From an uncultured Gammaproteobacteria bacterium (lineage in GTDB: Bacteria; Pseudomonadota; Gammaproteobacteria; Pseudomonadales; Pseudohongiellaceae), in contig CAJXUA010000029.1 of assembly GCA_913060695.1 (NCBI GenBank), positions 1 to 36,057 on the forward strand: a stretch of DNA of 36,057 nucleotides, in the 5' to 3' direction. The first letter of the stretch is position 1. Each line of letters starts with the position of its first letter. A program made the position numbers and the translations under genes. Under the pieces are notes generated by a model. The model ran no database searches and was not told where the DNA came from. It saw only the letters and a program-made list of their open reading frames with translations. Below are positions 4,805-28,624 of the stretch, piece by piece.

Positions 4805-7800
4805 TTACTTATTGCTCTGACTACTGGCTAGTGCCTCTAGCGCCTCCAGTTGGGAAGTCAGGAAATCAGCCGTCGAATTAAGTTGTGAAATGATCTTGTC
4901 GTTGGCTAGAAAAGAGGTTCTTAGTCGCGCCTCGGAACGGGCGATGCGCTCATCGAGGGCCACACGTTTCTCGGCAATACTTTCCAACTCCTGCGTTAAT
5001 GAGCTCGTACGCGCCGCAAAGAGACCGTCATTATTGAGAAACCCCTTTATCAATACACTTAGGTTCTCGGCCACCCCTTTGATGTAACTCACGGAACCTC
5101 TTGCACCCAACGCGCCACCTGTGACTAGTAGCCGTATACCAAAGGCAGCGTCGGCCTCTCCGGTTGCGTTAGTCCCCGTTTTACCTACCGCACCGGCTCC
5201 GGTGATAAAACCGAAAATAGATCCCGCATTGCCTTGCAGCTCACTTATCTGCACCTTCGAGCTCGTGCCAGTGCTATTGGAGATAATGCCAAAGCCCCCT
5301 GTATTGGTATCAAACTCAACCTTAACTGAAACGCCTGCGGCTACGAGTTTAGGACTATTGTTAATCGCGATTTGCATGCTCGCAGCGACAGCGGTGGGAT
5401 TCGTATTGCTGATAGAACCAAGCGTGATCGAGTCGGAAATGATGCCATCTACGTTGATCTTGAAACTGTCGAAAACAGTGCTACTAGCCAAATCTCCATA
5501 GGCCGTGTTCAGATAGAAACCCGGCGCGGCCTCGATCGTTCCTGAGCCTGCCCGCAATGATTGCCCGATACCGACAGCCTCCACTCCGTTGATCGTGCCA
5601 GCCACGTTCAAGCCATCGACAGATGTCTCACGCGGATTGGTCCCCGTCACTAGCCCTAGTTTGTTACCAGCGTTGACGGACACAGTACTAAAAGTGATCT
5701 GGTCCGAAAAATTCGCAGTTGAAAATACGAAACGACCCAGCTCTGTGTCTTCGTTATATTCATAGGAGACGATGACGGCCAGGCCGTCCTCCCCCGTATT
5801 GTTCGTAGTGGCAATTGCCATGCCATCGGCACCGTTGACCGTCTGGTCGGACAGACCCAACTCGGCAATGGCAGTTGCGTTAACATTGAGTAGCTCGATC
5901 TGCGTAGCGGCACCAGACCCACTGGCATAGGTCAACACCAACTGATCGTTGTCGTCTAAAGTAGCGGTGACTTGCGCACCAAGCCCCGCTGCTGTCAACG
6001 CGTCTTGTACTTTTGACAAGGTGTCCGCCGCACTGACCGTTGCCGTATCAATCAGCACAGACACAGGACCACCGCCAATGTCGATATCGAAGCTCGCGTT
6101 ACTAGTAGCAAAATCGAAGCCCGCACCATTAACTGCTGACCCGGCCGTAACTGCCGCCGGTAGACCGTTCGCAGTCACTTGAATCTGACTATCTTCGCCT
6201 GTGGCAACAGTCTCGAAATAGATTTGATTGCTGCCGTCCAAGCGCGCGATGACCTGCCCACTCAAAGCAGTGGCATCGATCGCATCCTGCACCGCAGCGA
6301 GTGTATTCTCGATAGTGCCTGGGGTTTCGCCTCCGAACGAGACAGAGCTTGCATCCCCTGTCACGCGCACTACTGTTTCTGTGCCACCTGCGTCGAGGCT
6401 TAAGGTTACCGCCAAATTCGTTGTGGCAAAATTCTGCCCCGCAGTGAGGATGCTGCCTGCGCCAGTTTGGGCGGGTGTAAAGGCAAAGTTCGGATCGGAG
6501 TTAATCTGTGTGCTTAGGGCCGTGATAAGGTCATCGGGCTTGTCATACACCACCGGGCTGCCGCTACTACCCGGTATAGTTAACAGGCTGCTACTAATGC
6601 CATTGACGTTGAACACAAAGCTCGTGTCTGCATTGAGCGTCACAGCCGTGTCAAAATTTTCACTCGACAGACCGTTGGGTGTACTTAAGCCACCTAGTTG
6701 ATTGCCCAGCGAGTCGCCTTGAAAAGGTGAGGTTAAGCCTAACAAGTTAGCCATGCCATTCTCGACATCCAAGAACCCTATTGCCGAACTTGAACCATAG
6801 GTATTCGATGCCAGCTCGAAACGTGTTTCCGCGCTATTATAGGTGACTGCAACACGATGGTTATTTGAACTGAGATCGGTATTGCTGTTGATCCTCGTTT
6901 GAATATGCTCGGCCAATGCCGCAGCAGTACTGTAGGTACCTTGCACCAAGGCTATATCCGCCGAAACACCATTGAGTAATACCGTGAACTCATCGTTGTC
7001 GTCATCGATCACGATATTGCCACTGGCTAAGGAGGCTACCTGTTGTCCCGTAAAGGTTCCCGTAGTTGCTAGTCGGGAGATGACGACATCGTAGGTCCCA
7101 GGTTTGGTTACAGATGTGGCGCTATTGTAAGTCAGCAGCGAGTCTGTGGTGGAACCTGCTGTGGCGAACATAGCGAGAATATCAGTGGAGTTACTCGCGA
7201 ACTTTTCCGAAAACTTGCTACTACTAAACTGTAGTTGGTAGCCGTTGTTTTGATCCGTAGTGATGCCAATTTCTGAGAGCGACCTAACATTACCCGTTAA
7301 ACCCGTAACAGAGGTCCTTAGGATTCGATTGATCTCGGACATAGCCAGACGCAGTGTCGAGTCGCCCGTTAGCAAGCTCCCCTGACCGTTCTTTCCCGAC
7401 GTGGTATCGAACGCAGTCAGCTCATCAGAGAGTGCTTTCAACTGATTGTAGCTTTCTACAAATGTTTCGATGCGGGTTGAGATACTCGATGCATCTTTAC
7501 TCACCGACAAGGTAACCGGCCCTGCCGTAACGCCTTTCAGGTTAATGGTAGTACCGGTAACTACCCCGGTCACTAAATTACTAGCGCGGCTAACGTTAAG
7601 GCCGTTTACAGAGAACAGGGCGTTCTGTGCGACGATTGTTTCGCTCAAACGCACCGACCCTTCTACCATTCCCTCGGAATCGTCTAAGCCAAAACCATCT
7701 AAACCACTGACATCTGTGGCAGACAAACCAAGCTGGGCAGAAGCTGCAGTGCCACTGGCATCGACGCTACTGATTTGAATGCTACTGGCAGCACCTGGAC

Positions 7801-9025
7801 TCACCCGCGTGAACACCAGTTCGTTACTAGCACTTAGACTGGCAACCACATCGGAATCCAATCCGGCGGTTACAAGTGCCGCATTAACTAGATCGACGGT
7901 TCCCTGCCGCGAGGCCGACACGGTATTAATTGTAATATTGGACGCTGCTCCGCCATCAACAGCAATGCTGAAAGTGGCATTATTCGCGCTGAAATCGAAT
8001 CCATCAGATAAAGTTGTGCCACCTGTCACCTGTGCCGAGACACCGTCGGTAAGGACTTCGAGCTCCTGATCGAAGCCAGCGCTGGCCGTCTCGAAGAAAA
8101 GGAAGTCTCCGTCGGCACTTGCAAGCACATCACCGGACTCGAAGCCGTTGGCGACAAGCTGGGTGTTCAGCGCACTCTGTACAGCGGCTATGGCATCGTT
8201 AGTGGTGGTGATACTGCCATTGGATGGCACCACGACATTCATTGCGACACCTTGGTAGCTAAGGCTGAACGCCAGGCTTGCACTGTCGAGCCCACCGCCA
8301 GTGGATAGATCAAGAGAGCCCGAAGCCGTAGTAGCGACGAGATATGCGTTCTGACTATTTTGATTGTAATTGAGTGCCTTGAGCCCATCCGTGCCTGAAG
8401 TGGTCACTTCAATGCTGTTTTTCGCTCCGCTACTCTTGCTACCGAATACTAATCTGTAACCGCTACCATCATCGACGATACTCGCTTGCACACCGAAATT
8501 GGCTTTGTTCACGGCGTCGCGGATACCTGCAAGAGTATTGTTAGCCGAGCTAATGACGATGCTTTTGGAAGTCGCGTCGGCATTGAGTGTAAAACCGTCG
8601 TAGCTGCCTCCGCCACCGTAGGTAGTAGTACCGAAACGAAAGTTAATCACTCCCGTGCCTACCGTGCTGGTCACTTCTTCATAGGCCCCACTAGCTATGG
8701 AATGAGATTGAGCAAGTTGCGTGACATTCACAGTATAGCTGCCGGCAACTGCCAGGCTGCTCGCAGTACCGGTGACAGTGCTTTCACTGCTGCTGCTCAC
8801 GGTACTCGCATTGAATGTAGAGGGCAGCTTTAGGGCCGCCAACGCAGCATCGAAACTAGAGAGCGCACTCGTTATCTCCCCATAGGCGGAGATCTTCGCC
8901 TCGGCAATAGTCTGCTTGCTGTCTAGCCGCGCCGCAACGGGTGCGCGTTCTGCCTCGATGATTTGTTCGACGAGTTCAGAGGTAAGAAGGCCAGAGCCTA
9001 CACCGAGGGATTGTATTGATGCCAT
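4805..9025 (-). CDS. fliD: Giant flagellar filament cap protein FliD (HAP2)
   Basis: FliD caps the growing filament and folds arriving flagellin. This one is 1406 residues; usual FliD is about 450-700. N-terminal FliD_N is clear (MASIQSLGVGSGL, then EQIIEAERAP). The D1/FliD_C core restarts near 505-620 (SISTRIETFVESYNQLK, LLTGDSTLR, LSEIGITTD), and the C-terminal coiled coil is at about 1338-1400 (ELESIAEKRVALDERIARSEARLR). Between and inside these pieces lie about seven copies of a recurring module, at roughly 248-333, 349-437, 679-763, 801-850, 868-958, 976-1058 and 1185-1272, so both FliD_N/FliD_C junction and FliD_C are interrupted. The start is ATG 9025 with GGGAG upstream, not an upstream alternative that would add 16 unrelated residues. 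A sigma-28 site precedes it. Confidence 0.95.
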   Translation of the reverse strand: MASIQSLGVGSGLLTSELVEQIIEAERAPVAARLDSKQTIAEAKISAYGEITSALSSFDAALAALKLPSTFNASTVSSSSESTVTGTASSLAVAGSYTVNVTQLAQSHSIASGAYEEVTSTVGTGVINFRFGTTTYGGGGSYDGFTLNADATSKSIVISSANNTLAGIRDAVNKANFGVQASIVDDGSGYRLVFGSKSSGAKNSIEVTTSGTDGLKALNYNQNSQNAYLVATTASGSLDLSTGGGLDSASLAFSLSYQGVAMNVVVPSNGSITTTNDAIAAVQSALNTQLVANGFESGDVLASADGDFLFFETASAGFDQELEVLTDGVSAQVTGGTTLSDGFDFSANNATFSIAVDGGAASNITINTVSASRQGTVDLVNAALVTAGLDSDVVASLSASNELVFTRVSPGAASSIQISSVDASGTAASAQLGLSATDVSGLDGFGLDDSEGMVEGSVRLSETIVAQNALFSVNGLNVSRASNLVTGVVTGTTINLKGVTAGPVTLSVSKDASSISTRIETFVESYNQLKALSDELTAFDTTSGKNGQGSLLTGDSTLRLAMSEINRILRTSVTGLTGNVRSLSEIGITTDQNNGYQLQFSSSKFSEKFASNSTDILAMFATAGSTTDSLLTYNSATSVTKPGTYDVVISRLATTGTFTGQQVASLASGNIVIDDDNDEFTVLLNGVSADIALVQGTYSTAAALAEHIQTRINSNTDLSSNNHRVAVTYNSAETRFELASNTYGSSSAIGFLDVENGMANLLGLTSPFQGDSLGNQLGGLSTPNGLSSENFDTAVTLNADTSFVFNVNGISSSLLTIPGSSGSPVVYDKPDDLITALSTQINSDPNFAFTPAQTGAGSILTAGQNFATTNLAVTLSLDAGGTETVVRVTGDASSVSFGGETPGTIENTLAAVQDAIDATALSGQVIARLDGSNQIYFETVATGEDSQIQVTANGLPAAVTAGSAVNGAGFDFATSNASFDIDIGGGPVSVLIDTATVSAADTLSKVQDALTAAGLGAQVTATLDDNDQLVLTYASGSGAATQIELLNVNATAIAELGLSDQTVNGADGMAIATTNNTGEDGLAVIVSYEYNEDTELGRFVFSTANFSDQITFSTVSVNAGNKLGLVTGTNPRETSVDGLNVAGTINGVEAVGIGQSLRAGSGTIEAAPGFYLNTAYGDLASSTVFDSFKINVDGIISDSITLGSISNTNPTAVAASMQIAINNSPKLVAAGVSVKVEFDTNTGGFGIISNSTGTSSKVQISELQGNAGSIFGFITGAGAVGKTGTNATGEADAAFGIRLLVTGGALGARGSVSYIKGVAENLSVLIKGFLNNDGLFAARTSSLTQELESIAEKRVALDERIARSEARLRTSFLANDKIISQLNSTADFLTSQLEALEALASSQSNK

Positions 9026-9164
9026 GCATGCTCCCGAGAGCGTTGGAGACGAACGTAAAGAGCAACGCGGCAATGCCTATGCACAGCGCGAATCTCACGC
9101 CAAGACTATTCAAGTTGTGTGCCAGCTCGATAGGAGATTCGCAAGCGTATGTCTTACATAGAGT

Positions 9165-9191
9165 TTATCGGCAAGCCATGAGGTTTCTTGA
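9165..9191 (-). promoter_or_regulatory. Sigma-28 (FliA) promoter for fliD-fliS
   Basis: On the minus strand, TCAAGAAA (9191-9184) is followed by an 11-nt spacer and GCCGATAA (9172-9165). The -10 is a perfect match to the enterobacterial sigma-28 consensus GCCGATAA, and the spacing is exactly the usual 11 nt. It would start transcription about 130 nt upstream of the fliD ATG, making fliD-fliS a late (class III/IV) unit independent of fliC. Confidence 0.85.
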
Positions 9192-9220
9192 CCTTCGCAA
9201 GCCTGCCAGCAACTCGAAAT

Positions 9221-9234
9221 GGCAAGGCCTTGCC
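9221..9234. other. 14-bp perfect palindrome GGCAAGGCCTTGCC
   Basis: A perfect palindrome between the fliD sigma-28 promoter and the MOSC gene start. It has the form GGCAA-N4-TTGCC, which recurs upstream of flgJ at 21380-21393. A longer-spaced CGGCAA...TTGCCG inverted repeat follows at 9277-9302. Possible operator; no regulator is identifiable. Confidence 0.35.
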
Positions 9235-9312
9235 GCTGCCTGCGGTCTTGCTTATCCGCAGCGGCTGCTTTACTTTCGGCAAGTCTCAATGAAATGTTGC
9301 CGAGGAACGTTA

Positions 9313-9789
9313 ATGACAGGACGTGTAATAGAGATACACATCGCGACGCAAAGCGATACGCCAGCAGAGCCACAAGCAAGCGTGCAGCTAGAGGCTGGTC
9401 ACGGCATAGTAGGAGATCGTCATTTCCTGCCACAGCAGGCCTTAGTGATCGATGACGCGCCAAGACGTAAGGAAGACATCAGCATCATCAGCGCGGATGA
9501 GCTCGATGCCTTCAATGCGAAATTCGAGCTCAATATTCCCTATGGGGATTTCCGACGCAACATCATCACCCACGACATCGATCTGAATGCCTTGGTCGGC
9601 AAACGCTTTCGCATCGGCAGTGCCCTGTGTGAGGGAATGGAGCTTTGTGAGCCTTGCAGCAAACTGGCGAGAACGGTGAATCGACTAGTGCTACCCCATC
9701 TAGTGCATCGCGCTGGCATTCGCGCGGCGGTGATTGAGGCTGGTCAGGTGGTGCTAGGTGACACCATAAAAGAAACCAATGACCTGTAG
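9313..9789 (+). CDS. MOSC domain-containing protein
   Basis: A 158-residue stand-alone MOSC (molybdenum cofactor sulfurase C-terminal) domain. Visible hallmarks are VQLEAGHGIVGDRH (residues 24-37), SIISADELDAF, the DFRRNIITHDIDLNALVGKRFRIG block (79-102) and LCEPCSKL with the conserved Cys115. The family is thought to carry sulfur or handle molybdenum-cofactor ligands and N-hydroxylated compounds; the substrate here is unknown. The start is ATG 9313, with GAGG at 9302-9305; upstream in-frame ATGs would only add non-conserved sequence overlapping fliD. It is on the plus strand, sandwiched between fliD and flaG, and has no obvious flagellar role. Its stop codon TAG lies inside a REP element. 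Confidence 0.9.
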   Translation: MTGRVIEIHIATQSDTPAEPQASVQLEAGHGIVGDRHFLPQQALVIDDAPRRKEDISIISADELDAFNAKFELNIPYGDFRRNIITHDIDLNALVGKRFRIGSALCEGMELCEPCSKLARTVNRLVLPHLVHRAGIRAAVIEAGQVVLGDTIKETNDL

Positions 9790-9874
9790 GAGCTTGCCTT
9801 GCAAGCGATTGGGTTCGATTAATAAGGATCTGTAGGAAATTTTGGCAAATCGCCTGCAGGGCAGGCTCCTACAG
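9784..9874. repeat. REPIN (inverted REP doublet)
   Basis: Left arm TGTAGGAGCTTGCCTTGC at 9785 and right arm GGCAGGCTCCTACA ending at 9873 are inverted copies of one REP sequence, able to fold into a long hairpin. The core carries GCGATTGGG on the left, ATCGCCTGC on the right and a centre containing GGATCTGT. The same centre occurs in the element at 14474-14563. The first bases form the stop codon of the MOSC gene. REPINs are normally mobilised by RAYT transposases encoded elsewhere; none is in this window. Confidence 0.85.
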
Positions 9875-9911
9875 TCAGCGGTTTCTTTCAAATGCTGGAA
9901 AGCGCTCTGAT

Positions 9912-9966
9912 TGTAGGAGCTTGTTTACCCTATTTATGGGGCCTTGCAAGCGATTGGGTTCGATTG
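9912..9966 (+). repeat. REP half-element with internal insertion
   Basis: Same orientation and sequence as the left arm of the 9784 element (TGTAGGAGCTTG...CCTTGCAAGCGATTGGG) but split by about 18 extra bases (TTTACCCTATTTATGGGG). No right arm follows. Similar CCCTA...TGGGG inner sequence is found in the REP near the right edge of the window. Confidence 0.75.
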
Positions 9967-9992
9967 AAACCAAATTTAGATAAATTCTACAC

Positions 9993-10022
9993 CAAAGAAA
10001 AGGCACGCTAAGAAGCGTGCCT
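9993..10022 (-). terminator. Intrinsic terminator after flaG
   Basis: On the minus strand, AGGCACGC, a 6-nt loop and GCGTGCCT form a perfect 8-bp stem, immediately followed by TTTCTTT. It begins 46 nt downstream of the flaG stop and should end the fliC-flaG transcript before it reads into the MOSC gene. Confidence 0.85.
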
Positions 10023-10067
10023 GAAGGGTTTTAAGGAGTTCGTTTGTTGGTCAGTATTATCTTAGAG

Positions 10068-10478
10068 TTAGACTTGCGCCTTGAACAAAAAGATCGGTTC
10101 CTGTGCGTCTAGTTTTTTAGCTAACTCTAACGCCTCTTTACCACCAAACTGCCGTACTAATTTTCTAGAGTTTCTGTCCACAACGGTCACCGAAGGTTCG
10201 GCTGCGCCCAGTTCAACGCCAAAAATAATGTCCCTTTGTATCGTTTGAACATAGTCGTTCAATCTTGCGACTGCTACTTCTAGTTTTTGCTCACTCGTTT
10301 GTTCTTCCTGGGATACTGCATCAAGGTTTCCGTTCTTCTCCGCAGCGTGTTGACGTTCTTCGCCGCCTCCGGAAAACAGGCTGGAATGGCCTTGATCATT
10401 ATTCTCGGTTTGCACTGAATTAACCTTGTCTCTCGAGACAGTCGTCGGCAGATATCTTGTTATACTGATGTCAGTCAA
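10068..10478 (-). CDS. flaG: Flagellar protein FlaG
   Basis: FlaG proteins are encoded beside fliC and influence filament length in several polar flagellates; the mechanism is not settled. The 136-residue product has a non-conserved, charged first half and the FlaG domain in the second: EVAVARLNDYVQTIQRDIIFGV followed by PSVTVVDRNSRKLVRQFGGKEALELAKKLD. No ATG is available in frame. The best start is TTG at 10478, because GGAGG (10489-10485) lies 6 nt upstream; a further TTG at 10514 has no such site. It is 112 bp downstream of fliC and ends in the terminator at 9993-10022. Confidence 0.88.
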   Translation of the reverse strand: MTDISITRYLPTTVSRDKVNSVQTENNDQGHSSLFSGGGEERQHAAEKNGNLDAVSQEEQTSEQKLEVAVARLNDYVQTIQRDIIFGVELGAAEPSVTVVDRNSRKLVRQFGGKEALELAKKLDAQEPIFLFKAQV

Positions 10479-10544
10479 GGTATGCCTCCAAAACGCGTCT
10501 CTAAAATTACTCAATCATCTAAACCAGTGTTGCAGATTATCTGC

Positions 10545-10578
10545 TTTGGCCTCCCGACTCAAGGAGTCGAGGGCCAAA
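10545..10578 (-). other. Stem-loop between fliC and flaG
   Basis: TTTGGCC and GGCCAAA close a stem that continues with an imperfect CTC/GGGA segment and GACTC/GAGTC around a 3-nt loop. It starts about 12 nt after the fliC stop. No U-tract follows; instead a short GCAGAT/ATCTGC repeat is next. It is best read as a 3' mRNA-stabilising or partial-termination structure that sets fliC high and flaG low, an inference only. Confidence 0.6.
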
Positions 10579-10590
10579 CCAGGTCTTTGC

Positions 10591-13500
10591 TTACTGGAGC
10601 AGTGACAGTACTTGCTGTGGAGCAGCATTCGCTTGCGAGAGGATCGAGATACCAGCCTGTTGCAGAATCTGACTTCTTGACAGAGCCGCCGCTTCAGCAG
10701 CGAAGTCGGCATCAAGAATTCGAGAGTTTGCAGCTGAGAGGTTCTCAGAAGTTACCGCTAGGTTAGAGATGGTAGTCTCAAAACGGTTCTGGATCGCACC
10801 GAGGTCGGCTCGTGCTGCGTTCACAGCGTTTAGAGCGTTATCGACCGCAGTCAACGCAGCGTTTGCGCCGTCTTGAGTGGAAATATCTATCTCATTTAGG
10901 TACTGACCCGCGATACCGCCACCGAATGAGCCCTGTGACAGGCCGAGGCTTGCCAATGCGCTGTTGCCGTTGGTGCCGCCAGACAGGTTGATCTCACCAG
11001 CGGAGGATAAAGACACAGTAGAGTAAGTAGTCTGCGCGTCTGCATTAGCCCGTGTGATACCAGTTAGGCCACCATCGGTGAAATCGGTCTCAGATACACC
11101 AGCGCCTGCCAAACCGAAGTTAGCCGCAGAAACTGCACTACCATTGGTGTCCAGAGCCATTACAATATTGCGGCCATCAGCTGCAGTCAATGTAACGCTG
11201 CTACCATTGTCTTCCGCCGAAACACCGGTCTGACCCGCAACCGAGTTCACTTGGCTTACCAAGAACGCACGGTTGGCGTCTGCTCCGCTTTGTGTCGTTA
11301 GACTCACGCTTACGCCGTTAAGATACAGGGTACCAGTGTTACCTAGCGTGCCATCTGTCGCTGCAGACGACCCCTTCGCGACTGTGGCATTTGCTTGCGC
11401 AGACACACCAGTAGAGCCGGTTGACTCATTAATGGCAGCCGCAATTGCGATACCAGAGGCTTTCTTGCTGCTGGAGTTAGCTACGTAGGAAGCAGAGTCA
11501 GCAGAATTTTTCGCAGCATTGATACTTACACCATTGACTACTAAATCCCCAGAAACTAGCTCCTTCTGCGACGCTGCAACTGCGTCTACACCTGTGCTCG
11601 TTCCGGCAGCTAATCCTAGAACTGAGGCTGCGCTTCCGCCAAGATTCGAAATCTGTACAGAACTTGCAAGACCAGTCGCATTCGATGTGAAAACAACATT
11701 GTTATCGGCGTCTTGAGAAACAGTAACACCACTTACTTGGCCTTCGATCTCCGCTTTCAAGAGTGCAAACGTTGTGTTGTCATCGTTCACGTTTACGTTG
11801 ACTGCAGTGCCACCATCCACTGACACAGTAAAGGTAGCGTTATCGGCACCAGATGAAGCCACGCCTGTATCGGCGGTAGTGATACTTGCACCAAACGCGC
11901 CAGCAGCAGTGACAAGAACCGATCCACCACCATCTGTAACAGTAATTGTCTTACCTTCTTGAACGTTCTCGGTCAATGTTAGGAATCCAGAACCATCAAG
12001 CGCTGCAGTAACTCCAGAGCCAGTTAGTTGCGAATTGATTTTGCTTATCAGACCAGTAGCGTCGGCAGAGTAATCACGATCTAGCGTAACAGAGTAACTA
12101 GTACCAGATACGTCCACATCGAATGCAACGTCAGTTGCTGCAGCGCCAGTACTTGTACCCGCACTGATACCCAACAATGTTCCAGTGTTCGCAGGACCGC
12201 GGATGTCAGATAGAATGATCTCGCTCGCGATACCTGTAGTGGCTGATCTAAACGTTAGTTGACCGTTGTCGTTCAAGGTCGCAGTTCCACCAGTCAATTG
12301 TGAATTGATTGCAGCAGCCAATTGCGAACCAGAAGTGTAGTTAGAGTCTAGCGTTACAACTTGATCAATAGTGTCGTCGAAACGGATATTGAACTTAGCT
12401 GGTGAAGTACCCGCTGTTCCAGTTTCCGTATCATTCGCACCCGAGAAACCAAACGCCGTATTAGCTTCATTACCAGCGGTTCCACTAATTAGCTCAGTGA
12501 ATATGATCGTTTTTCCTGTTGCAGAATCTTCTGTGAAAACGAGGTTACGGCTGGAGTTCAAGCTAGCTGTGACACCCAAGGCACCTAATTGTGTGTTGAT
12601 ATCGTCAAGCAACGCCTGGTTACCTGAACCGACCCCGCCACCTACGGTTGCGTCTGTGTAATCACTATTAATAACGATGTCTGCATTGCCGCCATCGACA
12701 ACACTGATTCGGAAGCTGGTGTCAGGTGCACCACCTGCGAAAGTGGTACCGGTTGCCGCAAGCGCAACAGTACCCGTAAGTTCAGCAACAGTGCCCGTTG
12801 GTGTAAAGTCATTTGAGAAGCTAGTTAGATCTACAGTTCCGGTTCTCAGTGCATTACCGTCTGAAAAGTTGCCACCAGCTGATCTATCGGCAGCTCCTGT
12901 CACTACAGCTGCGATCGATTGAGGACCATCACTGAAATTGTTCGAAGTAAACGCCACTGTGCCAGTGGTCACTGCAGAGGTAGCAGCCTGGAACGCAGTC
13001 GCAACACGAGCAGTAGAGCTAACACCGGAAACACCAGCAGTGAATGTACCACTTGATAGACCAGCATTAGAAAGATTCGCACCCGCTACTGTGATCTCGC
13101 GTGTGTCGCTACCTGCAACCAGAGTGAACCCACCAGTCTTTGTGCCAGCAGCGCCGAGACCCGTGCTTGCAGTCGTAACACCTGAAAGGGAAGTAGTGAT
13201 GTTACGGCCATCGGCTGCAACAAGGCTCACACCCAGTGCATCGTCGCCGCTGTCAATCGCAGTTACGCCTGTCAATGAAGACTGTGCATTGATTGCAGAG
13301 ACAACAGCCGCTCGAGAGGAAGTTGCATCATTAGTTGTTTCAACGGAGATTGCCGTGCCGTTGACAGTTACAGTACCTGCAGTCACAGACGCCGTCATGG
13401 CAGAGCCCGAAGCAGTGGTCTTGCTGACGATTGCAGTTACGCCAGTCTGCGCTGTAGAGCGGTTAACTGCAGCTGCTTTCGCAATTGCAGAAGAGCTCTG

Positions 13501-14133
13501 ATTAGCAGTAGAGGCAGAATCGTCTGATGCACGGCTTGCACCGATGCTGATGCCGTTGATTACTAAGTCGCCACCAGCAAGTGCGCTAGAAGTGGCAGTT
13601 GCGCTAACACCAGACTTAGAAGAAACGCCCAGTGTATCGGCAGTTAGTTTGCCGATGCTGACGCTGATGGTCTCACCAGAGTTGGCGCCTACTTGGAATA
13701 CAGATTTGAAGCTACCGTCGAGCAGATTCAAACCGTTAAAGTTAGTCTGCGAACCAGCACGTGAGATCTCAGCAATCAGTTGCTGTGTCTCGGAGTTCAG
13801 TGCCTGGCGGTCTGCGTCGGAGTTTGTACCGTTGGCAGATTGCAGAGACAGTTCACGGATACGCTGCAGGGAGTCGGTCATCGCACCCAGTGCACCTTCC
13901 GCGGTTTGTGACAGAGAAACACCGTCGCCGACGTTTCGGATTGCCACGTTCAGACCGTTGATCTGAGATTGAAAGCGCGTGGAGATCGCTAGACCGGCTG
14001 CGTCGTCCTTTGCACTGTTGATGCGAAGGCCTGAAGACAGACGCTCAAGAGCCTGGTTAGTGGCCGCCTGAGAACTGTTCAGGTTACGCTGAGCGTTCAA
14101 TGAAGCGATGTTGGTATTAATGATCTGAGGCAT
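10591..14133 (-). CDS. fliC: Giant flagellin FliC
   Basis: Filament subunit of 1180 residues; ordinary flagellins are about 280-550. The D0/D1 ends are canonical: residues 1-160 ([55 protein letters not shown]) and about 1086-1180 ([43 protein letters not shown]). The middle (161-1085) is greatly enlarged. It has a flagellin-hook-IN block at 186-349, repeated at 860-1003 ([10 protein letters not shown] versus [10 protein letters not shown], both with TAADGRNI-like ends). Between them are a TGTV-rich linker and four modules at 471-562, 577-659, 668-748 and 764-848. No cysteine is present. The start is ATG 14133 with AGGAG upstream; an upstream ATG adds eight unrelated residues. A sigma-28 site precedes it. 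Confidence 0.96.
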
Positions 14134-14243: not shown

Positions 14244-14388
14244 GCGTAAATGTAAAAAAATTTCACGCAGATCAAAGCTCTTTGCGGCCAAGTATACCCC
14301 CCACACCCTATGTATGAGGAGCGCTAAGAACCCTAGCTATCGGCGAGTTCTGTGATGGCTTTAGCGGTTTGGGGGAAATTGTTAGAAA

Positions 14389-14436
14389 GGTCTGTGGGTG
14401 ATTTTGGCTAATCGCCTGCAGGGCAGGCTCCTACAG
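14389..14436 (-). repeat. REP half-element (right arm)
   Basis: GGTCTGT-type centre followed by ATCGCCTGCAGGGCAGGC and TCCTACA, matching the right half of the REPINs at 9784 and 14474. No left arm precedes it. With the next element it forms a tandem cluster separated by a linker resembling the one at 9875-9911. Confidence 0.8.
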
Positions 14437-14473
14437 GCAGAGCCTCTTTCCAGTCTCGAGAGAATCCGCTGAT

Positions 14474-14563
14474 TGTAGGAGCCTGCCTTGCAGGCGATTG
14501 GGTTTGATTGATACGGATCTGTGGAAGATTGGGGCCGATCGCCTGCAGGGCAGGCTCCTACAG
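14474..14563. repeat. REPIN (inverted REP doublet)
   Basis: Left arm TGTAGGAGCCTGCCTTGC at 14474 and right arm GGGCAGGCTCCTACA ending at 14562 are inverted copies around a centre with GGATCTGT. It is close to the REPIN at 9784-9874 along its whole length. It lies between the divergent fliC promoter and the fliT-like gene, so the two REP clusters enclose flaG and fliC. Confidence 0.85.
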
Positions 14564-14616
14564 GCAGAGACATATACAAGATTAGTTAGAAACCACCTTA
14601 CCGACAGGAATAGAAG

Positions 14617-14986: not shown

Positions 14987-16231
14987 TTAGATATAGTTGA
15001 AGATCGACAGCTTACTTATACGCGCAAAACTCGCCTGTGCCGCCTCCAGAATGAAACTCTCCTGCGTCAACTGACTAATCGCCGAGGCATAGTCCAAGTC
15101 TTGCAATGTCGAGAGCGCCGTCTGTATGGCGAGGTTCGAATCCTCGTTCGCCGTAAGGGTGTTGTCCACTAGGTTCAAGCGCGCGCCTATAGAGCTACGC
15201 GTCTCCAGCAAGGCCGTTTGGGCATTACTCAAATTAGTCAGGGCATTGGCCGTTTTCGACGCTAAGGCCTCCTTATCGGCGACGTTGTCGCCAAACTTAT
15301 GCAGTGCCGCCACAAAGTCTTCGAGACCGGACAATAGGCCTTTGCGGTCACTCGACTCCACTATAAAGGTATCCCCCACCGCCGGTGAGCCGGAAATAGT
15401 GACAGCCGCACCGCCGAATTTGATCTGATCACCTGAGGAATAGGGTTCGTTCTGCACTAATACTCGGCCATCGGACACCTGACGAATGCTATAGGTGAGC
15501 CTTGGCGGGCTCGCCTCGTCTAGTGGGCGAAACTCAATCACTACGTCCTCTGGGTACAGCTTGGCAAATGCCTCTGGGTCCGTGATAGTCTCCTTGCCGA
15601 TGGTGGCAGGGGGCGTGCCCCTGTTCCCAGAGTTAGCGTGGGCGGCAATAGTCGGTTCGACACTCTTAACGTCCACGAACAGCTTCTTGCCCGAATCACT
15701 CGAGGCTACCGAGGTTGCCGCGGCGATCTGAATGCTGCGCTGCCCTTCATCGCCAGTGAAGCGATAGCGTCCGTCATCGCCACGCACGAAGGGTTCGCTC
15801 TTGCCCTGATAGCCGGCGAAGATAAACTCACCGCTGGCGTCGCGGCTATTCATCATCTGCGCCATCGCGTCGATCGTGGCCTGTAACTCTATGGCTAGGA
15901 AACCGCGCTGCTCTTTATTCAGCGCGCCGTCGCCGGACTGCGTCACGAGCTCTTGCGCACGCAGAATCAAGTCGCTCACCCCACCAATGGCCGCCTCTTC
16001 GCGGTTCAGGCGATTGCTCAAGGTTTGGAGATTACTGTTGTACTGTTTATTCAGCGCCAGCTCCTGATTCAGGGCTAGGATGCGCGTGGTCGCAATGGGA
16101 TCGTCCCCTGGGGAGAGAACGCGCTTATTGCTCGCGATCTGCTCCTGAGTCTTGCTCACGGCCTTTTGCATATCCAAAAGGCCATTGAGACCCTTGCTGT
16201 GTATCTGGAATGTGGACAGGCGAATGGTCAT
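14987..16231 (-). CDS. flgL: Hook-filament junction protein FlgL (HAP3)
   Basis: FlgL forms the junction layer joining FlgK to the filament. The 414-residue product is of ordinary size for Pseudomonas-like bacteria. Flagellin-like ends are clear: residues 1-140 (MTIRLSTFQIHSKGLNGLLDMQ, NKRVLSPGDDPIATTRIL, SGEFIFAGYQ) and 330-414 (LNLVDNTLTANEDSNLAIQ, DYASAISQLTQESFILEAAQ). A central domain at about 229-294 (YSIRQVSDGRVLV...GDTFIVESS) resembles FlgK 352-428. None of the large repeated modules of FlgK, FlgE, FliC and FliD is present. The ATG has AGGA upstream and lies 29 bp after the flgK stop, consistent with a flgJ-flgK-flgL operon. Confidence 0.95.
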   Translation of the reverse strand: MTIRLSTFQIHSKGLNGLLDMQKAVSKTQEQIASNKRVLSPGDDPIATTRILALNQELALNKQYNSNLQTLSNRLNREEAAIGGVSDLILRAQELVTQSGDGALNKEQRGFLAIELQATIDAMAQMMNSRDASGEFIFAGYQGKSEPFVRGDDGRYRFTGDEGQRSIQIAAATSVASSDSGKKLFVDVKSVEPTIAAHANSGNRGTPPATIGKETITDPEAFAKLYPEDVVIEFRPLDEASPPRLTYSIRQVSDGRVLVQNEPYSSGDQIKFGGAAVTISGSPAVGDTFIVESSDRKGLLSGLEDFVAALHKFGDNVADKEALASKTANALTNLSNAQTALLETRSSIGARLNLVDNTLTANEDSNLAIQTALSTLQDLDYASAISQLTQESFILEAAQASFARISKLSIFNYI

Positions 16232-16260: not shown

Positions 16261-19200
16261 TTAGATTGCGATCAAGGTATCGAACATGTCTTTCGCCATG
16301 GTGATCAGGCGCGCCGAGGCGTTGTAGTGCTGCTCGAACTGAATCAGCCGCGCCGCCTCCTCCTCTACGTTCACGCCAGAGACGCCTTGCAGCGAGTCCA
16401 TGGACTGGCGTAATAAAGTTTCGCTCGCGGCCTGGCTCAGGCGTGCCTGGCTGGTCAAGATGCCGAGATTCTCTACCAATTGGCCATAGGCACCTTGATA
16501 GGTTAGATTGCCCTCGGACAAGGTTAGGCCGGTATTCAAGCCCAGCATTGCTGCGCCGTTGCGGTTATCGGCGGTGCCATCGGTGTTATAAGTGATCACG
16601 AAGGAGTCCCCTGCCTGAGGCGCGCCGTTGACTCCATCACCACTGCCAATGCTGACCTGATAACCCATGAAATTGCCCACTGCCTTAGGCTCGGACCCAA
16701 ACAGTCCGTCGCGGCGACTCGAGCTCAATTGCATGTCCGCAGCCAACTGCACATCTATGGCGCCGCCTACGGTAAAGTCATTCATGAAGGCCTCGCCCTT
16801 ATCTACACGAGGAAACAGGGCGCCATAGCTGCCCACCACATCGGTCACGGCTAGTCGGGAGTTCGCACCGTAGGTAGTAGAGTCCAGCGTTAGGAAGCCT
16901 TCGGTTGAAACCCCTACGCGAATCGGCCCAATGCCCTCTGCCGCTAAGGCGGTGTTGATCGCCTCGCGAATAATATTGGCCACCCCGGCCGCACCTGTCT
17001 GCGTGCCAGAGACATTGCCCCCGGTCACCGGCATCATCGATACCGCACCGCCTACCACATTGCTAACGTTGAGGCTGGCCGTGTCGCCCTTCTGTCCCGT
17101 GCTTAGGGTCAGGTAGTTATTGCTATCCAGCCCCGCTGTCACGACACCTGCGCCGAATATGCCATCGAGCTGCGACTGAATATGGGTCAAGATGCCCGGC
17201 GGAGAAACACTGTCAGGCGTTGCGGCCAACGTCGTATTCACCCCACTCAAATCCACCGTCGAGCTGCCACCGCCGTTCACTGCCACATCGAAACTATGGG
17301 CACCGGCTAAGAAGTTGATACCGGCAGAGATATCCTGATTACCGGTAAATGTCGCCGGTATCGCGCTATCCCCAGTGAGCGTTACCGCCACCGCAGGGTT
17401 GCCGTCGACCGCAATATTGAAAGTATGAGGGCCGTTGCTATCGAAATTGAAACCGCTGCCTAAGGAAACATTGCCTAAAAGGGTCGCATTCTCGCCACCT
17501 GTGTCCTTGCCTAGTGAGCTGCTTGTCTTCAGCAGCCCCTGGGTAGAGGTATTGGCCGCGACACTTACCATGGCCAACTCGCCCGTGGTAGTCGTGGTAA
17601 AGCGCAGTGCGCCATTTGGGCCTATGTCGACTATCAGTTTGCCGGAGATTCCAGTATCGCCTACCGAGGCATCGACCTGGGCTTGAATATCCGCCACTAT
17701 CGTCGCGCCGCTATCTGCCGGATAGTTCGTGTTCAGGGTGATATTGCTAACCTTATTGCCATCGACTACTAGAAGGAATGTGGAAGAGTTAGCCCCACTG
17801 AAGTCGTAAGCGGCGCTGGCGCTAGCGCCATTGGAAAGCTGCGCCGCGATCGGACCTTTGTCTGGCCCTGAAATGCGAGTCAGCGACAAGCCTAATGGGT
17901 CACCGCCGGTAGCATTCGTGATGTTTACTGTGCGCGCATCGCCGACCGAACGAATCTCTAATTTGCCATCGGCATTGAGAGTGACATTGACAACCCCTCT
18001 GCCTATTGTCGCATCGATGTCGCTTTGTACCGCCGCAGCTACCTCGCTAGCAGCTAGCGTGGCTGGCGTAAGGCCCACATAGGTACTGCCAAAACCCACG
18101 TCGATATTGAAGCCCGTACTTGCCCCAATAGTGGTGCCAAATGCTAAAGACTTCTTGCCATGCACTGTGCGCAAGTCGCCATCGCGGACTGCGACGGAAT
18201 CCCCAACATTACCTCCGACCTTAACTTTCAAATCTACACCAGTACTAGAACGCACGGTAAGGGCGAGGCCATCACTGGTCGCCGTAATTCCCAGCCCCTT
18301 GAGGGTCGCATCGGCATTGATGCGATTGCGCAAAAAGTCGGGCGTCATAGGGTCTGGCATTGTCCGTGGCGTCAACTCGCCAGCGTAAACAAAACTAGGG
18401 TCCGTAAGATCCACCCCGTTGAGCGTTACAGTAAGGGGCGCACCAACATTGTCACTCTTGAAATCGGAAAGCTGTAACTGGCTAGACGCGTTCGCCTTAA
18501 CGCCGGATATATTCGATAGGCGTTGCGCAATATCATAGGCAGACTGATTCTGTTCGACCTTGAAGCGCTGTTCACTTGAATAACCCGTTAAGGGGTCTGT
18601 TGTCACAAATGTCAGAACTTCTTCGGCATAACCATTGCGAATGTCGCCAACATTGATACGACCAGCAGAACTGCCCATAGTGCTCACAGTCGTGCTACCG
18701 GGGTCAGATGGGAAAATCTGATTCAACGCGCCAGGTGAGAACTTCTGATTATTCAGTGGCGGCTTCAATGAAATAGGGTTAGCCGGATCCGAATAGTCCA
18801 ATACGTCGTAAGTCGTGGCAGAAGTGAAACGAATCATGATCGGTGGCGACAGCGAACCAGGCTTAGAGGTGAACGCTGGTGTAGTGATGTCGAGCACCGT
18901 ACCCGGCTGAATATAGGCACCGCCGGAATTACCGGCACCGGCCACTGTGCGTATTGGCGAGGCGAAGGCGAAGACCTCCGGCCGCGTGATCAACACTTTT
19001 AGATCGCTTATGCCTACCTTGGTCGGCAGGATGCTGAATTTGTCACCCGGTTGAAAAGAGCCAGACTTTAATGTCAGCGTGAAACCATCGACAGAGATAC
19101 TTAAAGGCAGCTTCTCGGTCAAAACGCCCTCGGCCATCATCTTGCCGTCGGACTCGCGTATCAAGGTATATTGCTGTCCGGGGCCTTCGAAATTCAATTT

Positions 19201-23427: not shown

Positions 23428-23464
23428 CGTGATACTCCTGAAAAACTTTGTGTATTTTTTAATC

Positions 23465-24250: not shown

Positions 24251-24279
24251 GATGGTGTCCTTTATTTACCTAATTCGAC

Positions 24280-25020: not shown

Positions 25021-25060
25021 TGTCCTACCCTCTTCTCAAGCCTAGGCTCGTTGCTTAGTC

Positions 25061-28000
25061 TTATAGGTTGATGATGGTCTGTGTTGCCGTATCTGCTGAT
25101 TCGATGATCTGCGCCGCCGCCTGGAAGTTGCGCTGCGACACGATCAGCTGAACCAGTTGCTCGGAAAGATCCACGTTGGAATCCTCGAGGGCGCCGGACT
25201 GAATCACACCCAGACCTGCCGTGCCCGCGCCACTGGGTGTACCAGAGCCCGATGCAGCAGTCTCGGAGAAGCGCGAACCACCCGCATTGGCTAGCTTGGA
25301 TTGGTCGGCGAACTTGGCTAGTGCCACCTCGCCCAGAATCTTGGATTGCCCGTTAGAGAATCGCGCGAAGATCGCACCACGGTCGTTGATATCCAGACCC
25401 GTCAGCTGACCCTTACCGAAACCGTTCTGAGTGTTGGACTGAACAGAGAAGTCGCCACCGAACTGACTCAACTGGGTAAGATCAATGCGGAAGTTTGAGT
25501 TGGTAGTCTGGTCGACAACAGTCGTGTTGCCAGGCACTGGGCCTGCACCCGAGGGCTTTCCGGCGCTATCCAACGGCGTCCAGTTTGTGATGAAGATCGG
25601 CTCCTGCGTCGGGTCATAGAGTCCCGAGCTGGTGAAGCGCAGCGACGCTTTCGCCAAAGTGGGGGCTGTGTCTGCCGTAGCTGCGTTATAGCCGATATCC
25701 TTGCCGTCCACCTGAAAATAGACACTCCACACGCTGCCACTCTGATTGGTGGCGGTGGGGCGCTCTTTCACGTAGTACTGCGTGAGTGTGTGCTGAATGC
25801 CCACTGTGTCGTAGATCGCGACAGCGGTGGAACGATAGTATGTATCGGCGTTCAGTGGGTCGAAGGTATTGAGCTCGAATTGTGTGCCCAATAAAGCGTC
25901 GTCGTCGCTGATGTCACCGAAGATACTCTCCGTGGTGATGGTGACGGCCTGTCCGGCTGCATTCGTGTCGGTATCGCTTAAGACTACGTTCTCGTCGAGG
26001 GTGAACTCGACCACGCCGCCCACTACCACACCGTCATTACTAAGATTGGCAAGGTTTGCAATCTGTTGCGTTGGCACAGAGCTATTGTAAACCGTCTCGC
26101 CAGTCGCTGAATCGCGAACCGAGGAGCCGATAGTGATGGAGCCCGAGCCAGCGGCACCACCGCTGAATACTAGGTTCGCGCCATTATTCTCTGTTACCTC
26201 GAGCATCGCAGAGGCACCGGAGCCAACTACGCGCGCGCTAAGATTGCCGGCAGATTGATTGATCAAAGCACTCAACTCATTCAAGCGATCTTCTGTAGCC
26301 GTCTGCCTTGCTTCGAAATTATTGCCATTGATCGTGAACTTCAAGGGCAAGTTTGCGTCTACGTTCGCAGTACCTGCACCAATGTTCTCTGGGTCACCGC
26401 TATTGGTCGCGGTAATATAGGCAACGGTCTTGGCTGTCGCTGTGATACCGGAGATATTTGAGAATTGTTGCGCCACCGCGTTCGCGGAACTACCGGCTAA
26501 CACATTCACGTATTGAGTCGTGCCGGTATTGTCCAACACTTTCACAGTCTCTGCGGCATAGCCATTGCCAACCGCTTTCTTGCCAGTGTTATTCAACTCG
26601 CTGCCAACAAAGGTGGCGATACTCGCGAAGTCTACCCCTACTCCTGTACCCGAGACCGTGCCAGCCGTGTCCGCTATTACCAAGTCGCCCGGTGGTGCGG
26701 GTGTAACTGCCACGATTAGATCTGCATCCGGACCGGTTGCCACGGATTCAATCACGACGAATCCAGTGGCTGGGTCTAGGCGCGCTCGCACTTGTTCCTG
26801 ACCTAGCGGGAAAGCAAAGTTGGTATCGGTGTTGATCGCGTTCTGAATGTAATCTACAACTTTCTTACCAGTATCCAAGTCTTGATCCAAGGTAATGACA
26901 TTGGAAGTAACAGGGCCAGTACCAGTATCGTAAGTAATCGTCAGAGTGTAATTAGTAGTCGCAAAATCGAAACCACTATTGACGTTCAAGGTACCAGTAG
27001 TACTTGCAGGAGTACTGTCAGACTCTACCTTCAGGGACTTATACGCAGGGTCGTTGAGTTCGAAAACGAAGCGTCCATCGGCGGCGATCGAGACCTTTAC
27101 CTTGCCAGGGAGAGTCGACGCATTGATCTGTCTTTGGATCTCATCTTCCATGGCCTCAAGACCAGAGGAAGCAAAAGTACCAAGGTTTTTCGCAGGTGTT
27201 CCATCGGGAGAGTAATCATCGGCCAAGGTAATCTGCAACGTTTGTCCATCCACAGTGACATTGAAGCGCGTGTTATCAACGGAGAAATCAACTTTGTCGA
27301 CGTCCAGCGTACCGGAACGACGCGTAGTAGCAAAAGTTACCACCTGATTAAAATTCACGCCGCCAGAAACCGAGGTCAATGGATTCACTGTTAAATTCAC
27401 ATCGGACGCAGCGGTGCTCTCAAACTTGAAAGTCCCATCTGCGTCGATACCCACAGTGACTTTACCCAACAAGCCCGCGTTGGTGTTGATTTGGGCTTGA
27501 ATATAATCTTCTAAGGCCTCGTTCCCCGAGCCTGCACCGCCCCCTAGTGCTAGTGCCGCGGCACCGGAGTTGGTGAAGTTTTCATTGATAATGATGTCGC
27601 GAGAAACTCCGCCTAAGGTTAAAGTGAAACCAGTGGGAGGAGCAGTCTTGCCCTTAACGTCGGTCGCCGATACCACACTCGCCGCTAGTCCTTGTACAGC
27701 ACTGATAGTGATGCGCGAAGAGTCGCCCGTTGCCGCCGTCTCAAGTACCACACGGTTGTTCTCTAAGCTTACATTTACGGCGTTATTGCCAGTGAAGCCT
27801 GCGGCCGTTAGTGCTGCGTCTATCGCTGTAACTACTGCCGCGCCATCTGCGGCGTTAACAGCCGCCAGATTGATTGCGGCGAATGCGCCACCGTTGACAC
27901 TGAGGGAGAAACTTTGCGCACCGGCGCCCGCCGTGAAATCGATGCCACCTGATACGTTTATGGAGCCAGTGGTTTTCGCCGCAGTAGTACCGGAGAAATC

Positions 28001-28624
28001 GGTACCATCGACGGATATCGTACCCGCCACGATTGCGGGCTGAGCGACACGAGAGCCAAACTGCGCACTGCCAGAGGTACCGCCATTACTCAAAACCTTG
28101 CTACCTATGATCGAAGATGGTGCCGCTGTTGCATCCAAGTTGATGCGACTGCTAACCAATGTTGTGGCCTGCGGCGAGATCTCACCAGTGGTCACAATTA
28201 GATCGGTCAAAGGACCACCGCCAGTTGCCTTGCCTTCTGAAGTGGCGGCAAAACCCTGCAGCCGCTCGCCAAGACTATTAACGATATAGCCGTTCTTATC
28301 AGTTCCGAAAGCGCCGGCACGGGTATACACATTGCCGCCTTCAGCTCCTAGGATAAAGAAGCCATTGCCATTGATAGCAAGATCCAATGTGCTATCGGTG
28401 AACGAGATATTGCCTTGCCCGAAATTCTGCGCGATGCTCTGTACGCCAACACCGCCACCGGCCTGATTTTCGCCGCCACCGAGTACCGAGGCCGCGTAGA
28501 CATCGGCAAACTCTGTGCGTGAGGATTTGAAGCCATTGGTACTGGCGTTCGCGATGTTGTTACCGGTGACAGAAATCTCTTCCTGTGCTGCGTTCAGTGC
28601 GCTCAAGCCGATGTTAAAACTCAT
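25061..28624 (-). CDS. flgE: Giant flagellar hook protein FlgE
   Basis: FlgE polymerises into the hook, the universal joint. This one is 1187 residues; common FlgE is 400-460. The N-terminus (MSFNIGLSALNAAQEEISVTG, NIANASTNGFKSSRTEFADVY), TLDLAINGNGFFIL near 80-92, a late hook core (FDPLNADTYYRSTAVAIYDT near 921-940, then SLRFTSSGLYDP) and the C-terminus (ALEDSNVDLSEQLVQLIVSQRNFQAAAQ) are canonical. Between residues about 200 and 850 lie four repeated modules (229-321, 331-405, 444-525, 551-643). A segment at 686-835 (NGYAAETVKV...FSNISGITA) matches FlgK 556-700. The start ATG has GGGGTGAG upstream. It follows flgD by 60 bp. Confidence 0.96.
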   Translation of the reverse strand: MSFNIGLSALNAAQEEISVTGNNIANASTNGFKSSRTEFADVYAASVLGGGENQAGGGVGVQSIAQNFGQGNISFTDSTLDLAINGNGFFILGAEGGNVYTRAGAFGTDKNGYIVNSLGERLQGFAATSEGKATGGGPLTDLIVTTGEISPQATTLVSSRINLDATAAPSSIIGSKVLSNGGTSGSAQFGSRVAQPAIVAGTISVDGTDFSGTTAAKTTGSINVSGGIDFTAGAGAQSFSLSVNGGAFAAINLAAVNAADGAAVVTAIDAALTAAGFTGNNAVNVSLENNRVVLETAATGDSSRITISAVQGLAASVVSATDVKGKTAPPTGFTLTLGGVSRDIIINENFTNSGAAALALGGGAGSGNEALEDYIQAQINTNAGLLGKVTVGIDADGTFKFESTAASDVNLTVNPLTSVSGGVNFNQVVTFATTRRSGTLDVDKVDFSVDNTRFNVTVDGQTLQITLADDYSPDGTPAKNLGTFASSGLEAMEDEIQRQINASTLPGKVKVSIAADGRFVFELNDPAYKSLKVESDSTPASTTGTLNVNSGFDFATTNYTLTITYDTGTGPVTSNVITLDQDLDTGKKVVDYIQNAINTDTNFAFPLGQEQVRARLDPATGFVVIESVATGPDADLIVAVTPAPPGDLVIADTAGTVSGTGVGVDFASIATFVGSELNNTGKKAVGNGYAAETVKVLDNTGTTQYVNVLAGSSANAVAQQFSNISGITATAKTVAYITATNSGDPENIGAGTANVDANLPLKFTINGNNFEARQTATEDRLNELSALINQSAGNLSARVVGSGASAMLEVTENNGANLVFSGGAAGSGSITIGSSVRDSATGETVYNSSVPTQQIANLANLSNDGVVVGGVVEFTLDENVVLSDTDTNAAGQAVTITTESIFGDISDDDALLGTQFELNTFDPLNADTYYRSTAVAIYDTVGIQHTLTQYYVKERPTATNQSGSVWSVYFQVDGKDIGYNAATADTAPTLAKASLRFTSSGLYDPTQEPIFITNWTPLDSAGKPSGAGPVPGNTTVVDQTTNSNFRIDLTQLSQFGGDFSVQSNTQNGFGKGQLTGLDINDRGAIFARFSNGQSKILGEVALAKFADQSKLANAGGSRFSETAASGSGTPSGAGTAGLGVIQSGALEDSNVDLSEQLVQLIVSQRNFQAAAQIIESADTATQTIINL

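Follow-up and report, generated by a model that had tools for sequence, protein, structure and literature searches.

The 36,057-nucleotide stretch analysed here (the window) is contig 29 of the 3.73-Mb genome of an uncultured gammaproteobacterium of the family Pseudohongiellaceae. It carries a flagellar gene cluster in which the hook protein FlgE (1187 amino acids, aa), the hook-filament junction protein FlgK (1347 aa), the flagellin FliC (1180 aa, from an ATG within a 1188-aa open frame) and the filament cap protein FliD (1406 aa, from an ATG within 1422) are all giants. We found that these four proteins contain homologous copies of one module, that whole arrays of this module are absent from relatives, and that the sizes of the enlarged proteins are coupled across genomes. 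The reading we favour, with a probability of about 0.6, is that the arrays on FlgE, FlgK, FliC and FliD form a wider outer shell that is matched between hook and junction. FlgL (414 aa), FlgD (227 aa), FlgG (261 aa) and the rod proteins are of ordinary size. An original prediction, made from the sequence alone, had claimed that just these four proteins are oversized with FlgL, FlgD and all proteins of the rod keeping their normal size, that the extra sequence is the same unit in all four, and that this unit is related to flagellin-IN motifs. Each of these points was borne out by the sizes and by the profile searches given below, including the module search that it had proposed.

One module in four axial proteins

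A hidden Markov model of the module, seeded with four examples from the original prediction and iterated on 13 window proteins, converged on 19 copies of about 80-100 residues: four each in FlgE, FlgK and FliC, and seven in FliD. One extra partial module was seen in FlgK (E value 0.08). The model found no module in FlgL, FlgD, FlgB, FlgC, FlgF, FlgG, FlgH, FlgI or FlgJ of the window, and its best match to reversed sequences had an E value of about 4. The four seeds alone already scored further copies at 2e-8 (FliC), 1e-6 (FliD) and 4e-5 (FlgK), and a widened model (357 rows, no reversed match under 1e-3) counted nine modules in FliD. As a non-circular test, we searched FlgE, FlgK and FliD with a profile built from the FliC copies only. 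This profile recovered 12 of the 15 copies at E < 1e-3, with the other three at 0.02-0.08: all four slots in FlgE (4e-7 to 3e-4), three of four in FlgK (the fourth at 0.04) and five of seven in FliD (the remaining two at 0.02 and 0.08). Reversed sequences gave it no match. BLASTP between the inserts gave best cross-protein pairs of 3e-9 to 6e-8; among the reversed controls, FlgK against its own reverse was strongest (3e-6) and cross-protein pairs reached 0.68 or worse. A per-protein hhalign test was set aside as partly circular, its copies having been gathered via one common profile.

Within this genome, the module was found in these genes alone. Searching the entire genome in six frames (E ≤ 10) gave 20 places, every one inside flgE, flgK, fliC or fliD; because the query itself contains the 19 copies, the result is informative as absence elsewhere in this assembly, which is 99% complete yet has no rpoB match. 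Outside the four proteins, the best E values of the module models in relatives were 0.024 (FlgC of G042), 0.038 (FlgI of G062) and 0.0076 (FlgL of G070), with best reversed E values of 0.17 in the scan including G042 and 0.066 in the scan including G062 and G070. The widened model reached 0.0083 in other proteins and 0.076 in reversed sequences. The copies share 26% mean column identity, no DNA repeat was found among them, and they are old.

What kind of domain is it? At E ≤ 0.1, 13 of 53 module copies match Flagellin_IN (PF07196; best 1e-8), and the other 40 are joined to it just by the profile built here. Whole FliC scores 25.6 bits against PF07196, above the curated 22.7, and FliC module 2 alone scores 31 bits. 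Whole FliD scores 21.5 bits, slightly under the curated score, and no PF07196 match was reported for whole FlgE or whole FlgK. The module profile also matches P. aeruginosa FliD. FliC module 2 (577-659), modelled with a predicted local distance difference test (pLDDT) score of 86.6, has a β-β-α-β-β-β fold, the same fold class as the solved FliD D2-D3 outer domains. The module is likely a divergent Flagellin_IN or FliD-D2-type outer domain. It would be a known domain class, newly and coordinately deployed; unlike Flagellin_IN and FliD D2/D3, it occurs here in four to seven copies per protein and in four proteins.

Apart from two insertions ahead of D2, FlgE has the make-up of an ordinary hook protein: D2 lies at 919-1069, and alignment to FlgE proteins of 395-412 aa shows about 780 inserted residues before it. 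One insertion is the four-module block. The second domain is common to FlgK (hhalign against FlgK 540-728: probability 97.6, E 4e-12; reversed control probability 2.2) and occurs in mid-size relatives too; a sequence search of FlgE 690-915 against solved structures gave no match. The full-length AlphaFold model of FlgE was poor (pLDDT 50.4, 12 rows), and only its secondary structure and outer-domain matches were used; in Foldseek this low-confidence model matched the C. jejuni hook protein entries 5az4 (E 4e-5) and 5jxl (E 7e-5). In FliC, an outer region is duplicated (180-340 and about 855-1020; hhalign probability 99.9, E 5e-35), and the four modules sit between both copies. From its layout, the duplicated region may correspond to the 'DE' of Thomson et al. 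2018. Its relation to the modules is weak (hhalign probability 70 at best), and FliC 180-340 found no match in a sequence search against solved structures. FliD is a plausible source of the module because its slots near 142 and 676 are present also in small FliD proteins. As a separate observation, cysteine is absent from all four giant proteins, and their net charge is -42 to -76.

Sizes and arrays in relatives

We searched 59 genomes of the window's family and found a Flagellin_N match in 38, FliD in 30, FlgK in 35 and FlgE in 32. The lengths of FlgE/FlgK/FliC/FliD form a giant class (1191/1347/1190/1432 in G018, 1205/1341/1394/1403 in G050, and likewise giant in G043), a mid-size class (678/891/699/934 in G003; also G028, G011, G033 and G045) and a small class (422/640/474/681 in G027; also G034). 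Other genomes are mixed. Four (G016, G022, G041 and G053) combine a giant FliC (1190-1202) with mid-size FlgE (679-684), FlgK and FliD; G030 has giant FlgE, FlgK and FliD with a small FliC, FliC being 740 and FlgE 1195 in both G030 and G051; and G013 has 676/895/1192/1190. At locus L095 (G042), flgK is split into open frames of 841 aa and 518 aa, through either gene breakage or an error in the sequence.

Module counts track these sizes: within the window's flagellar type, FlgE carries four modules or none, FlgK four, three or none, and FliD one to seven. FliC of this type carries four or none, but two or three in G042, G050, G018 and G053. Whole arrays are missing together from FlgE, FlgK and parts of FliD in relatives, and the FliC array is lost separately. 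Between the window's genus and G042/G050, the FlgE slots are orthologous (four clades of eight, support 0.96-1.0), as are most FlgK and FliD slots, and the FliC slots are not clearly so. A core tree was built from FlgB, C, F, G, H, I and J; it omits twelve loci that are short or copies of G-genome contigs (L003-L007, L009-L013, L015 and L028; L003, for example, corresponds to G043) and retains L008, L014, the Pseudomonas-type loci and L029. In this tree the mid-size genomes group with G013 (support 1.0) next to a clade of giants (1.0), and G042/G050 branch outside the two. Most simply, the arrays of both FlgE and FlgK would have been lost on a single branch.

Size contrasts on the core-gene tree (17 genomes, 16 contrasts) gave r = 0.98 for FlgE-FlgK, 0.82 for FlgE-FliD and 0.86 for FlgK-FliD, while FliC against the other three gave 0.26-0.42, not significant. 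These contrasts omit G005, G053, G042, G051, G056, G031, N008 and N014, in which genes are missing or split or which are absent from the core tree, together with genomes that have another flagellar type.

The coupling extends across the order. We searched 127 genomes for each of the four protein families, and 88 genomes from 31 taxonomic families had all four lengths; the rest had no matches, partial genes (e.g. G102, G140 and G130) or a FliC that was not among the matches listed (G065, G088, G123 and G151). Lengths are those of stop-to-stop open frames, with the longest FliC and usually the best-scoring FlgE taken from multiple copies. All six size pairs correlate (Spearman 0.68-0.88 over the 88 genomes, 0.55-0.89 over medians of the 31 families). 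Contrasts on an rpoB tree covered 82 of these genomes, G000, G083, G125, G158, G162 and G177 having no rpoB match, and gave 0.77 for FlgE-FlgK, 0.58 for FlgE-FliC, 0.54 for FlgE-FliD, 0.52 for FlgK-FliD, 0.34 for FlgK-FliC and 0.31 for FliC-FliD, every pair with a sign-flip p of 0.01 or less. With the five most influential contrasts dropped, the values were 0.65, 0.40, 0.27, 0.30, 0.22 and 0.36, in the same order. Rod and ring proteins barely respond to the size of FlgE: for FlgD, F, G, H and I, the medians stay within 12 residues. FliD has at least 1000 aa in 11 genomes, and in all 11 FlgE has at least 1190 and FlgK at least 995; FliC in these genomes ranges over 751-1295, one being ended by a contig edge. 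The FliC of G125 (790) runs past its contig end. On the rpoB tree, from which the window's giant genomes are absent, giant FliD represents three changes; together with the window's giants, this gives giant FliD in four families (f1, f5, f9 and f34).

The module occurs in FlgE and FliD of every one of the four giant families; among these families, arrays in FlgK and FliC were seen just in the window's own. By the widened model, the ten giants of the three other families have two to six modules in FlgE, four to seven in FliD, none or one in FlgK, and none in FliC. Of 18 outside-family genomes scanned with it, a single genome, G152 (f14), carries the module in every one of the four proteins (1, 1, 1 and 2 copies), and a 1673-aa flagellin of G130 (L140) carries three modules. 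FlgE reaches 1587 aa in family f5. Some sharing by all four proteins is therefore not unique, but just the window's family was seen to have three or four modules in a row in each of them, and the sharing of the module by hook and cap recurs.

The original prediction that four layers expand together thus stood in part. For hook, junction and cap, sizes are coupled in relatives and more widely than had been claimed; for flagellin the claim is less general, since FliC also changes alone. The prediction had named a single enlarged protein as the case that would speak against it, and FliC is large alone in G016, G022, G041 and G053 and small alone in G030 and G051. Within the family, the FlgE-FlgK-FliD coupling holds.

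A proposed matched outer shell and its alternatives

Why would these proteins change size together? In the reading that we favour, the arrays, which occupy the central, outward-facing part of FlgE, FlgK, FliC and FliD and leave the D0/D1 core ordinary, would give the axial layers beyond the rod a much wider outer shell, encircling hook, junction, filament and cap as outer rings. Where neighbouring arrays touch, their contacts could give a wider and stronger hook that carries the load of the flagellum, much as the additional FlgE domains do in C. jejuni. The near-perfect FlgE-FlgK coupling would follow because FlgK sits directly on FlgE and their shells must match. FliC would be freer to change because FlgL, near-constant in the family, separates FlgK from the filament, and its size would be under separate cost pressure because it is made in thousands of copies. 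FliD would enlarge along with hook and junction, perhaps since the cap is first built on the junction. More tentatively, a common outer radius beyond the rod may evolve as one quantity, with whole arrays gained or lost in the genes for hook, junction and cap and flgE and flgK also exchanging copies, FlgL insulating the filament, and four families of one order taking the same hook-cap route.

Several observations weigh against the homology of the modules or against a matched shell. Profiles built from FlgE, FlgK or FliD only are weaker than the FliC-only profile: those from FlgE and FlgK match nothing in window FliC at E < 0.1, and that from FliD matches nothing in window FlgK, and FlgE at just 0.03. 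In orthologues from 11-12 genomes, each of the three gives one to four cross-protein matches below 1e-3. Moreover, a second flagellar type in relatives (L099, L100, L102, L107 and L108) is an exception to size coupling, with large FlgE (971-1017) and FlgK (915-997) yet FliD of 476-495 and flagellins, where seen, of about 280-380. Finally, part of the size co-change may be co-transfer. The flagellar cluster has probably moved between species, because the rpoB and flagellar core trees disagree on two genomes. The first, G013 (L063 and L064), falls with the giants on rpoB (100/99), an approximately unbiased (AU) test rejecting its placement with the mid-size genus (p 0.002), but with the mid-size genus on the core tree (support 1.0). 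The second, the small-class G034 (L087 and L088), stands beside the giants G042/G050 on rpoB (94/92), yet with G027 on the core tree.

These conflicts are what would be expected if linkage explained the coupling, that is, if flgE, flgK, fliC and fliD were swapped between species in one cluster and their sizes travelled together without any fitting. We regard linkage as an unlikely explanation of the whole pattern. Contrasts on the cluster's own core-gene tree still give 0.98 for FlgE-FlgK, whereas FliC, which is equally linked in the window, is uncoupled. Giant FlgE, FlgK and FliD reappear together in four families, and in G142 and G163 the flgE, flgK and fliC/fliD matches lie on separate contigs or more than 50 kb apart.

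It is improbable that the arrays serve a surface role such as adhesion, recognition or shielding from phages and predators, in which coupling would stem from shared surface chemistry rather than mechanics. The modules, besides being old and divergent, are acidic (K+R 3-5%, D+E 8-11%), as exposed domains may be. However, apart from Flagellin_IN, any given enzyme or binding family had matches from at most two of the 53 copies; the hook, with about a hundred subunits, and the cap offer little surface compared with the filament; and hook and junction stay giant where FliC is small (G030 and G051).

A module tree (85 copies, 84 columns) bears on how the arrays arose. Most copies cluster by protein and slot. 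FlgE slot 1 joins FlgK slots 3-4 (99/93) and not the other FlgE slots, and FlgK slot 2 joins a single FliC copy and slots 2-4 of FlgE (91/75). These groupings suggest copying between flgE and flgK, although the one-clade tests for these two are marginal: AU tests of module monophyly per protein gave p values of 0.05 for FlgE, 0.08 for FlgK, 0.39 for FliC and 0.32 for FliD. Neutral, independent duplication and shrinkage of outer domains in each protein, with their likeness reflecting an ancient common outer domain, is very improbable: the module class is old and shared by Flagellin_IN, FliD D2 and flagellin D2, and most copies do group by slot, but sizes are correlated on two trees, the FlgE slot 1 grouping crosses proteins, and rod and ring proteins are nearly constant.

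The locus and known systems

On the minus strand, the genes run fleQ-like, fliS, fliD, flaG, fliC, flgL, flgK, flgJ, flgI, flgH, flgG, flgF, flgE, flgD, flgC and flgB; flgA, flgM, flgN and a ycgR-like gene lie on the plus strand. Pfam and NCBIfam models agree with the protein identities; flgB, flgC, flgF, flgG, flgH and flgI were assigned from position and sequence. The closest FlgI relatives, 74-97% identical, belong to gammaproteobacterial metagenome-assembled genomes and genomes, Pseudohongiella among them. The window also contains a repetitive extragenic palindromic (REP)-like element at 9785-9878 (fliD-flaG gap) and 14347-14567 (fliC-flgL gap), in three copies of which two are 66% and 86% identical to the first; a MOSC-domain protein gene in the fliD-flaG gap, encoded on the plus strand (9016-9789, +; PF03473, E 4.5e-14); and, at its end, a short AP2-domain open reading frame (35500-35937, +; PF00847, E 5e-10). 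The window's own assembly (G000) lacks an rpoB match despite its 99% completeness rating, so gaps are present.

Table 1. Flagellar genes, domains and modules in the window (residue numbers in parentheses)
Feature	Position	Strand	Evidence
fliS	4320..4757	-	TIGR00208
fliD, giant filament cap protein, 1406 aa	4805..9025	-	PF02465 E 8e-26, PF07195 E 1.5e-39
FliD module 7 (1184-1276)	5198..5476	-	
FliD module 6 (975-1061)	5843..6103	-	
FliD module 5 (880-969)	6119..6388	-	
FliD module 4 (676-767), slot also in relatives' small FliD	6725..7000	-	
FliD module 3 (348-437)	7715..7984	-	
FliD module 2 (249-342)	8000..8281	-	
FliD module 1 (141-223), slot also in relatives' small FliD	8357..8605	-	
flaG	10068..10514	-	PF03646
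fliC, giant flagellin, 1180 aa	10591..14133	-	PF00669 E 1e-41, PF00700 E 1e-26
FliC outer region, second copy (about 855-1020)	11074..11571	-	hhalign
FliC block missing in relatives with 700-740-aa flagellin (379-858)	11560..12999	-	
FliC module 4 (764-844)	11602..11844	-	
FliC module 3 (667-752)	11878..12135	-	
FliC module 2 (577-659)	12157..12405	-	
FliC module 1 (470-566)	12436..12726	-	
FliC outer region, first copy (180-340)	13114..13596	-	hhalign
flgL, 414 aa, ordinary size, without module	14987..16231	-	
flgK, giant hook-filament junction protein, 1347 aa	16261..20304	-	TIGR02492 277 bits, cut-off 171; PF22638 E 9e-66
FlgK four-module array missing from mid-size relatives (714-1175)	16780..18165	-	
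FlgK module 4, truncated (1093-1169)	16798..17028	-	
FlgK module 3 (1001-1096)	17017..17304	-	
FlgK partial module, weak (about 958-996)	17314..17430	-	E 0.076
FlgK module 2 (839-936)	17497..17790	-	
FlgK module 1 (728-813)	17866..18123	-	
FlgK partner of FlgE second domain (about 577-710, approximate limits)	18175..18576	-	hhalign
flgE, giant hook protein, 1187 aa	25061..28624	-	NF004238 FlgE 402.4 bits, cut-off 400; PF07559 E 6e-24
FlgE second domain (about 702-830, approximate limits)	26135..26521	-	hhalign
FlgE four-module block missing from mid-size relatives (203-686)	26567..28018	-	alignments
FlgE module 4 (562-659)	26648..26941	-	
FlgE module 3 (450-551)	26972..27277	-	
FlgE module 2 (329-434)	27323..27640	-	
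FlgE module 1 (235-323)	27656..27922	-	
flgD, ordinary size, without module	28685..29368	-	

Our search of the open-access literature, with subscription papers mostly not covered, found no report of the shared module or of the size coupling. Giant flagellins of marine gammaproteobacteria, a class also marked by filaments at least 30 nm thick, were described by Thomson et al. 2018 (PMC6248924), who found the repeat in flagellins alone and no homologue of the DX insert beyond Oceanospirillales flagellins. The window's FliC resembles these proteins in exceeding 1000 aa and in having a duplicated outer region around an insert, but the place of the insert is occupied by four modules that are homologous to the ones in FlgE, FlgK and FliD. 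The same authors raised the question of whether the rest of the apparatus is enlarged to match. Our results give a partial, sequence-based answer: hook, junction and cap are large, whereas the proteins of rod and ring are of ordinary size and FlgL is hardly enlarged. The question of why some flagella are thick thereby becomes a testable question of matched outer shells, and natural variants that lack the FlgE and FlgK arrays, or the FliC array, exist for comparison.

For flagellin itself, outer domains D2/D3 of P. aeruginosa PAO1, which has a ridged filament, are required for swimming in viscous media (PMC10256154). The match of our FlgE to this structure is to a flagellin, not a hook protein, and probably rests on the better-modelled FlgE second domain (about 690-885) rather than on the four modules.

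The closest parallel for the hook is C. jejuni, whose FlgE of 865 aa, termed one of the longest, has extra domains D3 and D4 (PMC5097172, PMC5069557) that bring the hook to a width of 280 Å and reportedly lend it robustness (PMC5097172). An ordinary hook is about 18-20 nm wide. The window's FlgE likewise has extra outer domains beyond D0-D1-D2; unlike the two-domain extension of C. jejuni, it has 1187 aa and tandem modules. By analogy with C. jejuni and the published giant flagellins, hook and filament would be thick in the window's organism. FlgK touches both FlgE and FlgL, and there is a solved structure of a cap that has assembled on the junction (PMC12221982). Campylobacter FlgK has been argued to have diverged to match its own FlgE (PMC5691160), and here too a change in the hook would force a change in the junction. 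That argument concerned one species and structure modelling, whereas the size coupling reported here spans many genomes.

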